Source of the DNA: Apricaphanius iberus
Lineage: Eukaryota > Chordata > Actinopteri > Cyprinodontiformes > Aphaniidae
Length of the DNA stretch: 64,000 nt
Direction: 5' to 3'
Assembly (NCBI GenBank): GCA_028564705.1
Contig: JAPXFQ010002430.1
Location: 62,001 to 126,000, forward strand
Each line of letters opens with the position of its first letter. Position 1 is the stretch's first letter. A program made the translations under genes and the position numbers. Of the stretch, positions 19,801 through 29,856 are shown piece after piece. The notes under the pieces are model-generated. The model was given only the letters and a program-made list of their open reading frames with translations, ran no database searches and was not told the DNA's origin.

Positions 19801-22800
19801 CCGCCTCCTCCACTGTGTCGCGGCGGGTCTTGGCGGGCCGGGCGGCGGCTTCGCGGCGGGACGAGGCCAGCTTGGCGGGTTTGGCGTCCTGGGGGGACGG
19901 AGAGTCGGCGCGGCCGGCCGAGATGGCGGAGGTGGTGGGGGTGGTGGTGTCGGCTTTCCTCTTCACGCCTTTCTTCTGCTGGACGGACACACACACAGGG
20001 TGAGGACACACACACACAACCTGACCCGCCGTGTCCAGGAGACGCCGTTACCTTGACGACGGGCTGCGCTGACGGCATCATGGCTGCTGGGGGCTGCGTG
20101 GCGGGCAAAGGGGGCGTGGCTGGAACAGGTGTGGGCGTGGTCGAGATGACAGGCGTCTGAGACGGGGAGGGGGAGGGGTAAGAGGCAGGGGGGGGCGAGG
20201 CCGACGACTCAGCCTGCTGACTCACTGTTAGAGAGAGACAGACGGGTTAGAGACAGTGGACTGTCTGTCTCAAGGTCTCACCAGTCTGTCTCCAGGTGTC
20301 ACCTGTCTGTCCCTCTCTCTGTATCTCACCTGTCTGTCTCTCTGTCTCCAGGTCTCACCTGTCTGTCTCCAGGTCTCAGTCTGTCCCTCTCTCTGTCTCC
20401 AGGTCTCACCTGTCTGTCCCTCTCTCTGTTTCCAGGTCTCACCTGTCTGTCCCTCTCTCTGTATCCAGGTCTCACCTGTCTGTCTGTCCCTCTCTCTGTA
20501 TCCAGGTCTCACCTGTCTGTCTGTCTCTCTCTCTGTCTCCAGGCCTCACCTGTCTGTCCCTCTCTCTGTCTCCAGGTCTCATCTGTCTGTCTCTCTCTCT
20601 GTCTCCAGGTCTCACCTGTCTGTCACTCTCTGTTTCCAGGTCTCACCTGTCTGTGACTCTCTCTGTCTCCAGGTCTCACCTGTCTGTCTCTCTCTCTGTC
20701 TCCAGGTCTCACCTGTCTGTCTCTCTCTCTGTCTCCAGGTCTCACCTGTCTGTCTCTCTCTCTGTCTCCAGGTCTCACCTGTCTGTCTCTCTCTCTGTCT
20801 CCAGGTCTCACCTGTCTGTCTCTCTCTCTGTCTCCAGGTCTCACCTGTCTGTCTGTCTCTCTCTCTGTCTCCAGGTCTCACCTGTCTGTCTCTCTCTCTG
20901 TCTCCAGGTCTCACCTGTCTGTCTCTCTCTCTGTGTCCAGGTCTCACCTGTCTGTCTCTCTCTCTGTCTCCAGGTCTCACCTGTCTGTCTCTCTCTCTGT
21001 CTTCAGGTCTCACCTGTCTGTCTCTCTCTCTCTGTCTCCAGGTCTCACCTGTCTGTCTCCAGGTCTCACCTGTCTGTCTCTATCTCTGTCTCCAGGTCTC
21101 ATCTGTCTGTCTCTCTCTCTGTCTCCAGGTCTCACCTGTCTGTCACTCTCTGTTTCCAGGTCTCACCTGTCTGTCACTCTCTCTGTTTCCAGGTCTCACC
21201 TGTCTGTCTCTCTCTCTGTCTCCAGGTCTCACCTGTCTGTCTCTCTCTCTCTGTCTCCAGGTCTCACCTGTCTGTCCCTCTCTCTGTTTCCAGGTCTCAC
21301 CTGTCTGTCCCTCTCTCTGTATCCAGGTCTCACCTGTCTGTCTGTCTCTCTCTCTGTCTCCAGGTCTCACCTGTCTGTCCCTCTCTCTGTATCCAGGTCT
21401 CACCTGTCTGTCCCTCTCTCTGTATCCAGGTCTCACCTGTCTGTCCCTTTCTCTGTCTCCAGGTCTCACCTGTCTGTCTCTTTCTCTGTCTCCAGGTCTC
21501 ACCTGTCTGTCTCTCTCTCTGTCTTCAGGTCTCACCTGTCTGTCTCCAGGTCTCACCTGTCTGTCTCCAGGTCTCACCTGTCTGTCTCAAGGTCTCGGTC
21601 TGTCCCTCTCTCTGTCTCCAGGTCTCACCTGTCTGTCTCTATCTCTGTCTCCAGGTCTCACCTGTCTGTCTCTATCTCTGTCTCCAGGTCTCACCTGTCT
21701 GTCCCTTTCTCTGTCTCCAGGTCTCACCTGTCCGTCTCTCTCTTTGTCTCCAGATCTCACCTGTCTGTCCCTCTCTCTGTTTCCAGGCCTCACTTATCTG
21801 TCCCTCTCTCTGTATCCAGGTCTCACCTGTCTGTCTGTCTCTATCTCTGTCTCCAGGTCTCACCTGTCTGTCCCTTTCTCTGTCTCCAGGTCTCACATGT
21901 CTGTCTCTCTCTCTCTGTCTCCAGGTCTCACCTGTCTGTCTCTCTCTCTCTGTCTCCAGGTCTCACCTGTCTGTCTCTCTCTCTCTGTCTCCAGGTCTCA
22001 CCTGTCTGTCCCTCTCTCTGTTTCCAGGTCTCACCTGTCTGTCCCTCTCTCTGTATCCAGGTCTCACCTGTCTGTCTGTCTGTCTGTCTCTCTCTCTGTC
22101 TCCAGGTCTCACCTGTCTGTCCCTCTCTCTGTCTCCAGGTCTCATCTGTCTGTCTCTCTCTCTGTCTCCAGGTCTCACCTGTCTGTCACTCTCTGTTTCC
22201 AGGTCTCACCTGTCTGTCACTCTCTCTGTTTCCAGGTCTCACCTGTCTGTCTCTCTCTCTCTGTCTCCAGGTCTCACCTGTCTGTCCCTCTCTCTGTTTC
22301 CAGGTCTCACCTGTCTGTCCCTCTCTCTGTATCCAGGTCTCACCTGTCTGTCTGTCTCTCTCTCTGTCTCCAGGTCTCACCTGTCTGTCCCTCTCTCTGT
22401 CTCCAGGTCTCATCTGTCTGTCTCTCTCTCTGTCTCCAGGTCTCACCTGTCTGTCACTCTCTGTTTCCAGGTCTCACCTGTCTGTCACTCTCTCTGTTTC
22501 CAGGTCTCACCTGTCTGTCTCTCTGTATCCAGGTCTCACCTGTCTGTCCCTCTCTCTGTATCCAGGTCTCACCTGTCTGTCCCTTTCTCTGTCTCCAGGT
22601 CTCACCTGTCTGTCTGTCTCTCTGTCTTCAGGTCTCACCTGTCTGTCTCCAGGTCTCAATCTGTCCCTCTCTCTGTCTCCAGGTCTCACCTGTCTGTTTC
22701 TCTCTCTGTCTCCAGGTCTCACCTGTCTGTCTCTCTCTCTGTCTCCAGGTCTCACCTGTCTGTCTCTCTCTCTGTCTCCAGGTCTCACCTGTCTGTCTCT

Positions 22801-29856: not shown

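Follow-up and report, generated by a model that had tools for sequence, protein, structure and literature searches.

The DNA considered here, hereafter the window, is a stretch of 64,000 nucleotides (nt) of contig JAPXFQ010002430.1 from the fish Apricaphanius iberus, and it carries a teleost brd3 gene on its minus strand. The gene was located by tblastn, with a human BRD3 sequence as the query, and the exon ends were then set by splice-site reading, giving exons at 29856-29765, 29684-29573, 29499-29362, 29268-29124, 20224-20052, 19978-19580 and 7862-7734. Introns 1, 2, 3, 5 and 7 are short, at 80, 73, 93, 73 and 70 nt, and intron 6 is long, at 11,717 nt. Intron 4, the subject of this analysis, is also long, extending over exactly 20225-29123 (8,899 nt) between coding exon 4 (29124..29268; 145 nt), which encodes the end of bromodomain 1 and the linker and has CCACAG at its 3' end, and coding exon 5 (20052..20224), the junction with which matches fish proteins. 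The data are the DNA sequence of the window, from one assembly and one haplotype, together with predicted proteins from other fishes.

With the exception of a 36-nt tail, all of intron 4 is occupied by a minisatellite of about 277 units with the consensus GTGAGACCTGGAGACAGAGAGAGGGACAGACAG (20261..29123, minus strand). Tandem Repeats Finder (TRF) reports a period of 33 bp and 260.7 copies over 20362-29127, and a wrap-around alignment to the 33-bp consensus, set in the phase of the donor, gives 277 units of which the final one is partial. The initial annotation had described 20225..29123 as a brd3 intron made almost entirely of about 270 copies of a 33-bp repeat, and the boundaries that it gave are exact. 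The unique tail (20225..20260) holds a CTAAC motif resembling the branch-point consensus, a pyrimidine tract and AACAG. At the other end the array starts at intron position +1, with unit 0 beginning at 29123 and exon 4 ending at 29124, such that the array abuts the genuine donor exactly, as had also been claimed. Homology between the exon and the end of a unit extends only four bases (ACAG) back from the junction, and the last 33 bases of exon 4 are identical to the unit at just 13 of 33 positions. The authentic exon 4 donor, CAG/GTGAGACCT (29115..29126, the slash marking the splice junction), is therefore itself unit 0 of the array, and has the top score among the seven brd3 donors scored with a position weight matrix; donor and acceptor scores alike are simple rules.

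The motif ACAG/GTGAG occurs 240 times on the sense strand of intron 4, the authentic donor included, and 238 of the 239 other copies, referred to below as decoys, are identical to the authentic 9-mer. The related word CAGGTGAGA, which agrees with eight of the nine bases of the donor consensus, as the initial annotation had stated for each full unit, is found 238 times in intron 4 versus twice in the other 55.1 kb (both strands together); 2.4 copies are expected from first-order Markov sequence of equal composition (50 runs). Sites that score at least as high as the authentic donor have a density of 27 per kb in the array and 0.07-0.10 per kb outside arrays, and the other eight minisatellites of the window contain one such site in total.

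Each of these donors carries an E-box, with 241 copies of CAGGTG in intron 4 versus 60 of CAGGTG or CACCTG in the other 54.8 kb, and the sense strand of the array is rich in G and A (GC skew 0.45, AT skew 0.69). E-boxes of this type are bound by ZEB, Snail and E-proteins, and G-rich transcripts of skewed DNA are prone to form R-loops, so that the array might act as a DNA element through either route. This is very unlikely to be the explanation, in that the E-box lies within the donor motif, and so accompanies the donor, and two other arrays of the window have a like plus-strand GC skew (0.59 and 0.40) but no donor.

The units of the array fall into classes that differ in how the donor is predicted to fold. 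In the commonest class, CAGGTGAGACCTG, of which there are 199 exact copies in intron 4, forms a near-palindrome; the form CAGGTnnnACCTG is present in 204 copies, none of which lies beyond the stretch from exon 4 to exon 5. A 19-nt piece containing the palindrome is predicted to fold into a 5-bp hairpin across the donor (-5.4 kcal/mol), and 199 of the 239 decoys belong to this hairpin class. The 27-bp variants, which were initially described as having lost CAGGT, read ACAG/GTGAGAGACAGAGAGAGGGACAG; that is, the sense donor is retained and CCTGGA is gone, the missing piece being the plus-strand CCAGG (the antisense acceptor), or one arm of the palindrome. In total, 29 donor-bearing units read ACAG/GTGAGAGA without the CCTGGA that is CCAGG on the antisense strand, and 26 of the 29, mostly 27 nt in length, lie no further than 1,305 nt into the intron, in a donor-proximal zone (27818..29090, minus strand) where donors are kept and the hairpin arm is lost. 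The median probability that the 9-nt donor is open is 0.018 for the 199 hairpin units in 80-nt windows and 0.003 in 200-nt windows, versus 0.22 and 0.15, respectively, for the 29 units lacking CCTGG, and is 0.05 for the 11 other units. Folding predictions of this kind exclude proteins, and U1 may open weak hairpins. The idea that decoys had been removed where they would compete most is turned around by these data, since the units nearest the exon have lost the arm that is predicted to hide the donor, and would be exposed decoys.

It does not follow that the hairpin is maintained for a function. In the 277 units, both arms are intact in 195, the right arm is deleted in 36, the left arm is changed in 16, and the right arm is substituted in 9 (7 of which would form a wobble pair). 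Both arms are changed in the remaining 21 units, some of which resemble alignment shifts, and none of these restores the five pairs, so that selection to keep the hairpin is not indicated by compensatory changes. Local RNA structure near the donor (28900-29200) has a z-score of -0.52; the corresponding value in mid-array (24000-24300) is -4.76, which probably results from the palindromes.

A second property of the sense strand is that it is a strand of donors only. Acceptor-like sites were defined as YAG preceded by 15 bases of which at least 11 are pyrimidines, and by this rule the 8,899 nt of intron 4 contain a single site, the true acceptor in the 36-nt tail, compared with 129 and 188 sites per strand in the rest of the window, or 21-30 per 8.9 kb. 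No 15-mer of the sense intron has more than seven pyrimidines (the last 60 nt being excluded from the scan), and no recursive, or ratchet, sites were found on this strand, there being no pyrimidine tract with AG followed by GT. Because there is only one acceptor, any decoy could join only the true acceptor within the intron, with a longer exon 4 as the result. The antisense strand has 248 acceptor-like YAG sites by the same rule, 232 of which are AG/GT, bearing out the acceptor-like array that had been noticed on that strand; this array is a consequence of the palindrome, and would matter only if the antisense strand were transcribed. The antisense strand of the array (20657-29371, plus strand) also has stop-free frames of up to 2,904 codons, which are probably a by-product of a CT-rich, A-poor repeat.

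The array was initially suggested to function as a sink for U1, or to protect the transcript from premature cleavage and polyadenylation through bound U1. The presence of 240 strong U1 matches in one intron is what such proposals would draw on, and yet 199 of the 239 decoys are of the hairpin class, and the sense intron contains none of 13 kinds of poly(A)-signal hexamer, AATAAA and ATTAAA included, which leaves protection with nothing to act on inside the intron; nor does the intron qualify as a telescripting cluster. Vertebrate cells contain about one million copies of U1, and a sink residing in one gene is implausible on stoichiometric grounds. Both versions are regarded as highly improbable.

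In addition to donors, the sense strand is dense in DRACH motifs, of which intron 4 has 1,014 (114 per kb), versus 20.6 per kb elsewhere on that strand and a maximum of 39.2 per kb in 75 overlapping windows of equal size. The excess is modest, because composition alone yields 770 (standard deviation 21), a 1.3-fold difference. Each array unit adds two to four DRACH motifs, and an mRNA spliced from the k-th decoy retains k intact upstream 5' splice site motifs. RNAs with intact 5' splice site motifs are reported to be kept in the nucleus by U1-70K, ZFC3H1 and YTHDC1/2, with a need for DRACH motifs and N6-methyladenosine (m6A) (PMC11629677). Both features of a substrate for this pathway, intact 5' splice sites (240 donors) and DRACH motifs (1,014), are present on the donor-only strand of intron 4, raising the possibility that the array is a nuclear-retention or detained-intron module in which some 240 U1 sites and some 1,000 DRACH motifs would keep brd3 RNA that is unspliced or mis-spliced from leaving the nucleus. 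In the same publication, a single 5' splice site motif was enough for retention of a ftz reporter and enhancement of DRACH made no significant change (PMC11629677), so that hundreds of donors would not be needed; with the small excess of DRACH over composition, a dedicated module of this kind seems unlikely. The mechanism described is a quality-control pathway and not a sequence family, and the brd3 array has its motifs in plenty.

The internal structure of the array points to how it may have grown. In a search restricted to ungapped matches of at least 97%, blocks of 451 nt (100% identity), 439 nt (98.0%), 412 nt (98.8%) and 350 nt (99.1%) were found to be duplicated within the array. The copies of the longest, which show zero differences, are 4,311 nt apart, and offsets of about 2.0-2.2 and 4.0-4.4 kb recur in many of the duplicated blocks. 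This pattern is read as recurrent unequal exchange on top of slippage of units. An intron consisting of the 36-nt tail and one or two units would measure 69-102 nt, which is the size of introns 1, 2, 3, 5 and 7 (70-93 nt). Expansion from the exon boundary, as proposed in the initial annotation, is supported by this agreement in size together with the exact abutment of the array on the donor. The array 30208-33648 starts about 175 bp from a putative brd3 5' untranslated region acceptor and not at a splice site. Nine arrays, the one in intron 4 included, make up 36% of the window, and for this reason the region is considered to be prone to minisatellite expansion.

The explanation that we favour, with reasonable though far from full confidence, is that the array is a donor-seeded minisatellite that arose when the donor half of a brd3 intron of ordinary, short length expanded, and that it is tolerated because any errors it causes are benign or are filtered out; the cell would then be living with what is probably a runaway repeat and not a device built for a purpose. 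Tandem duplication would have begun at the donor of an intron of 70-100 nt lying in a minisatellite-prone region, with the array growing from the donor half, and the arrays that survived would be those in which a working donor was kept against the exon and the branch point and acceptor remained intact. Splicing would probably proceed mainly from the authentic first donor, which exon definition would set for exon 4, and now and then from in-frame donors downstream. The strand is donor-only, with one acceptor and zero poly(A) signals, and on that account the array can be tolerated: a mistaken contact by U1 would produce only a longer exon 4, and neither a cryptic exon nor a truncated mRNA. Such longer products would retain 5' splice site motifs among DRACH motifs, and may be held in the nucleus and filtered out.

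Reading through from exon 4 into the array (28969..29123, minus strand), the first in-frame stop begins at intron nt 155 (counting from 0), and the donors at +33, +60, +93, +120 and +147 are all in frame and before this stop; counted by position, frame 0 holds 68 of the 240 donors in the array. Competition of decoys with the true donor is possible, and any use of the first five would keep the reading frame. These positions also bring in the main rival to a tolerated repeat, namely a working ladder of donors like that in human IFI6, where several in-frame donors would be used, short repeat peptides would be added to the linker after bromodomain 1, and the type of unit would set the choice. In keeping with such a ladder, four of these five decoys (+33, +93, +120 and +147) have no hairpin arm, and their predicted openness exceeds that of the authentic donor by a factor of about 28-170, depending on the decoy and the window size.

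Proteins of other fishes bear on the ladder in both directions. Two protein searches listed 124 distinct records, all predicted proteins, out of 3,169 and 2,977 matches; the exon 4/5 junction was aligned in the first 120, and a screen for anchors covered all 124, of which 8 lack them. Among the matches listed, the closest are BRD3 or BRD3b proteins of Fundulus, Xiphophorus, goodeids and Gambusia, with 95-96% identity, all of which we take to be cyprinodontiforms, and the 13 best-scoring relatives all have a plain ATT/VSQQ junction. The peptide words of the array are in none of the 120 aligned records, and a search with the predicted insert gave no hit at E <= 0.001 in 3,182 candidates, although plain relatives failed as well, so that only a long match to the insert was detectable. 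In the predicted proteins of some other fishes the junction does carry repeats. For instance, the records of Centroberyx gerrardi differ exactly at this point, with isoform X4 having no insert, X1-X3 having 21 residues, and another X2 having 28; the inserts are built from a 7-residue unit (GTTANTA and variants). The predicted protein of Centroberyx affinis has a similar 21-residue insert, and that of Stegastes partitus has an insert of GNTT-type repeats. A glycine after the threonines, as G/GT would give, is found by a loose pattern in 17 of 116 anchored records, with the two Genypterus records having the glycine later, and several other records with the pattern being short or odd and perhaps prediction noise. 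The inserts support a ladder, as does the precedent of IFI6, but they are gene predictions, and with the plain junction of the best-scoring relatives and the failure to find array peptides, a ladder with real isoforms is held to be a serious but doubtful alternative.

Centroberyx belongs to the beryciforms and Stegastes to the ovalentarians, and the repeats of the two differ from that of the window. This suggests that tandem repeats unrelated to one another may have arisen at the exon 4 donor on more than one occasion; in one species the annotation includes alternative donors. A more ambitious proposal is that this donor is a recurrent birthplace of donor-seeded arrays in acanthomorphs (the window species, Centroberyx and Stegastes, with the same ACAG/GT and different repeats), that the arrays form in-frame ladders in which a palindrome tunes the choice by hiding or exposing each donor, and that mRNAs containing array sequence are screened by 5' splice site and m6A retention. 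Taken as a whole this is a speculative scheme, and probably not correct in its entirety. If recurrent seeding were true, splice donors would represent a class of minisatellite nursery.

Several observations weigh against a tolerated array spliced mainly from its first donor. The authentic donor has a predicted open probability of 0.002 or 0.003, no better than that of a hairpin unit, and this low accessibility argues, as far as the folding model goes, against its easy use. In vitro work on duplicated donors (Eperon 1993 and 2000) is reported to favour in many cases the donor nearest the acceptor, and a preference of that kind would disfavour the first donor. Two predicted records of Fundulus heteroclitus, whose genus is one of the closest relatives, run past the junction with TTGEAQAESS; they rank below the 13 best-scoring relatives. 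Low variability of the donor positions was sought as a sign of selection, and the outcome is mixed: changes plus deletions, summed from the counts of the 277-unit alignment, amount to 4.6% at the ten positions of the donor (30-33 and 1-6), compared with 12.2% for positions 7-24 and 1.4% for positions 25-29, leaving the donor positions intermediate and weak selection on donors compatible with the pattern. The intron constitutes a natural experiment in splice-site competition, with one acceptor, about 240 near-identical donors at known spacing, and two predicted structural classes. The first several donors are in frame, and knowing which donors are used would test exon definition, proximity rules, structural masking, and the filtering of RNAs with 5' splice site motifs.

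The closest known system is the minisatellite of human IFI6 (also 6-16 or G1P3), which supplies multiple splice donors (Turri, Cuin and Porter, NAR 1995, as described in PMC4526556). Three sequence features of that type, a tandem array, overlap with a donor, and units that match the donor consensus, are found in the brd3 array. The IFI6 unit is reportedly about 12 bp, in a small array, whereas that of brd3 is 33 bp, in about 277 copies over 8.9 kb, and takes up the intron as a whole; most of its donors are covered by a palindrome, and its sense strand is donor-only. Judged by sequence features, the brd3 array would be of the same kind as that of IFI6, and what is new would be its scale, the replacement of a whole intron, the palindrome, and a donor-only strand of 8.9 kb. 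Other systems are less alike, as far as the parts of the publications consulted go. Intron 1 of Sparus aurata myostatin-2 has a 150-bp block in one or two copies with extra splice sites predicted inside (PMC3045353), sharing with brd3 a repeat at the 5' end of a teleost intron, but it is not a minisatellite of donors. CeRep25B of C. elegans is a palindromic or near-palindromic minisatellite that is mostly intronic and near regions of alternative splicing (PMC4039745); it forms clusters across many genes, and no tie to the donor of the host intron appears in the text consulted. Tandem genomic duplication involving splice signals can create introns (PMC4974935), but there a new intron arises, whereas in brd3 an existing intron would have been enlarged. 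The repeats of a prawn lectin (PMC7536079) were considered and rejected as a comparison, given that in the part consulted they lie inside an exon. No donor arrays were found in the part of the literature on fish intronic minisatellites that was searched, and the literature searched held no donor-repeat intron beyond works citing IFI6. Rfam (at gathering thresholds) and tRNA scans gave no match. A 20-nt piece of the unit was found in public viral and prokaryote contigs, with one contig of each and one match in each; their surroundings are alike and coding-looking, and the matches were put down to chance.

A possible role for the tail of the intron was also considered, in which it would pair with array units and so bridge donor and acceptor. 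The predicted pairing of tail and array has a median of -41.9 and a best value of -46.0 kcal/mol, where the strongest of 30 shuffled tails, tried against only the first 2 kb, has -35.1, and a 14-nt word of the antisense array recurs in the tail, a match that none of 200 shuffles equalled. The pairing is not specific, because one of the gene's five other acceptor tails, that of exon 3, does as well (-41.8, best -49.4 kcal/mol, with a 12-nt word that beats 200 of 200 shuffles), even though its own intron is 93 nt and has no array. Moreover, pairing would mask the branch point, and nothing of this kind was found in the literature on intron-bridging repeats that was searched. Bridging is considered a most improbable reading of what is a modelled interaction. 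There is no evident reason for the pairing of the exon 3 tail (29500-29535, minus strand) with array RNA beyond a shared CCCTGTCTGTCT.

The eight further minisatellites of the window lie at 30208-33648, 34630-35506, 39547-40193, 41728-44031, 46471-48218, 52488-54497, 56010-58997 and 63828-64000, with TRF periods of 10-99 bp and different units. The last of these begins just upstream of the first of two exon stretches (about 63598-63750 and 63123-63287, minus strand) with matches to FAD_SOX and Evr1_Alr, as expected of quiescin sulfhydryl oxidase (QSOX-like) exons. Intron 6 of brd3 contains a stop-free frame of 350 amino acids (8177-9226, minus strand) that matches the Tc1-like transposase domains HTH_Tnp_Tc3_2 and DDE_3, and a stop-free frame with a partial reverse transcriptase domain (9709-11019, plus strand). 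The exon 6 acceptor is a NAGNAG (CAGCAG; 19976-19981, minus strand), and the records of relatives read VVKQKK or VVKKK at this position. Bromodomain 1 reads KLCLWDYH over the exon 2/3 junction (29573-29587, minus strand); across 120 records of fish BRD3, in the eight commonest patterns, the last residue of exon 2 is A in at least 81, W in at least 16, and S in at least 13.

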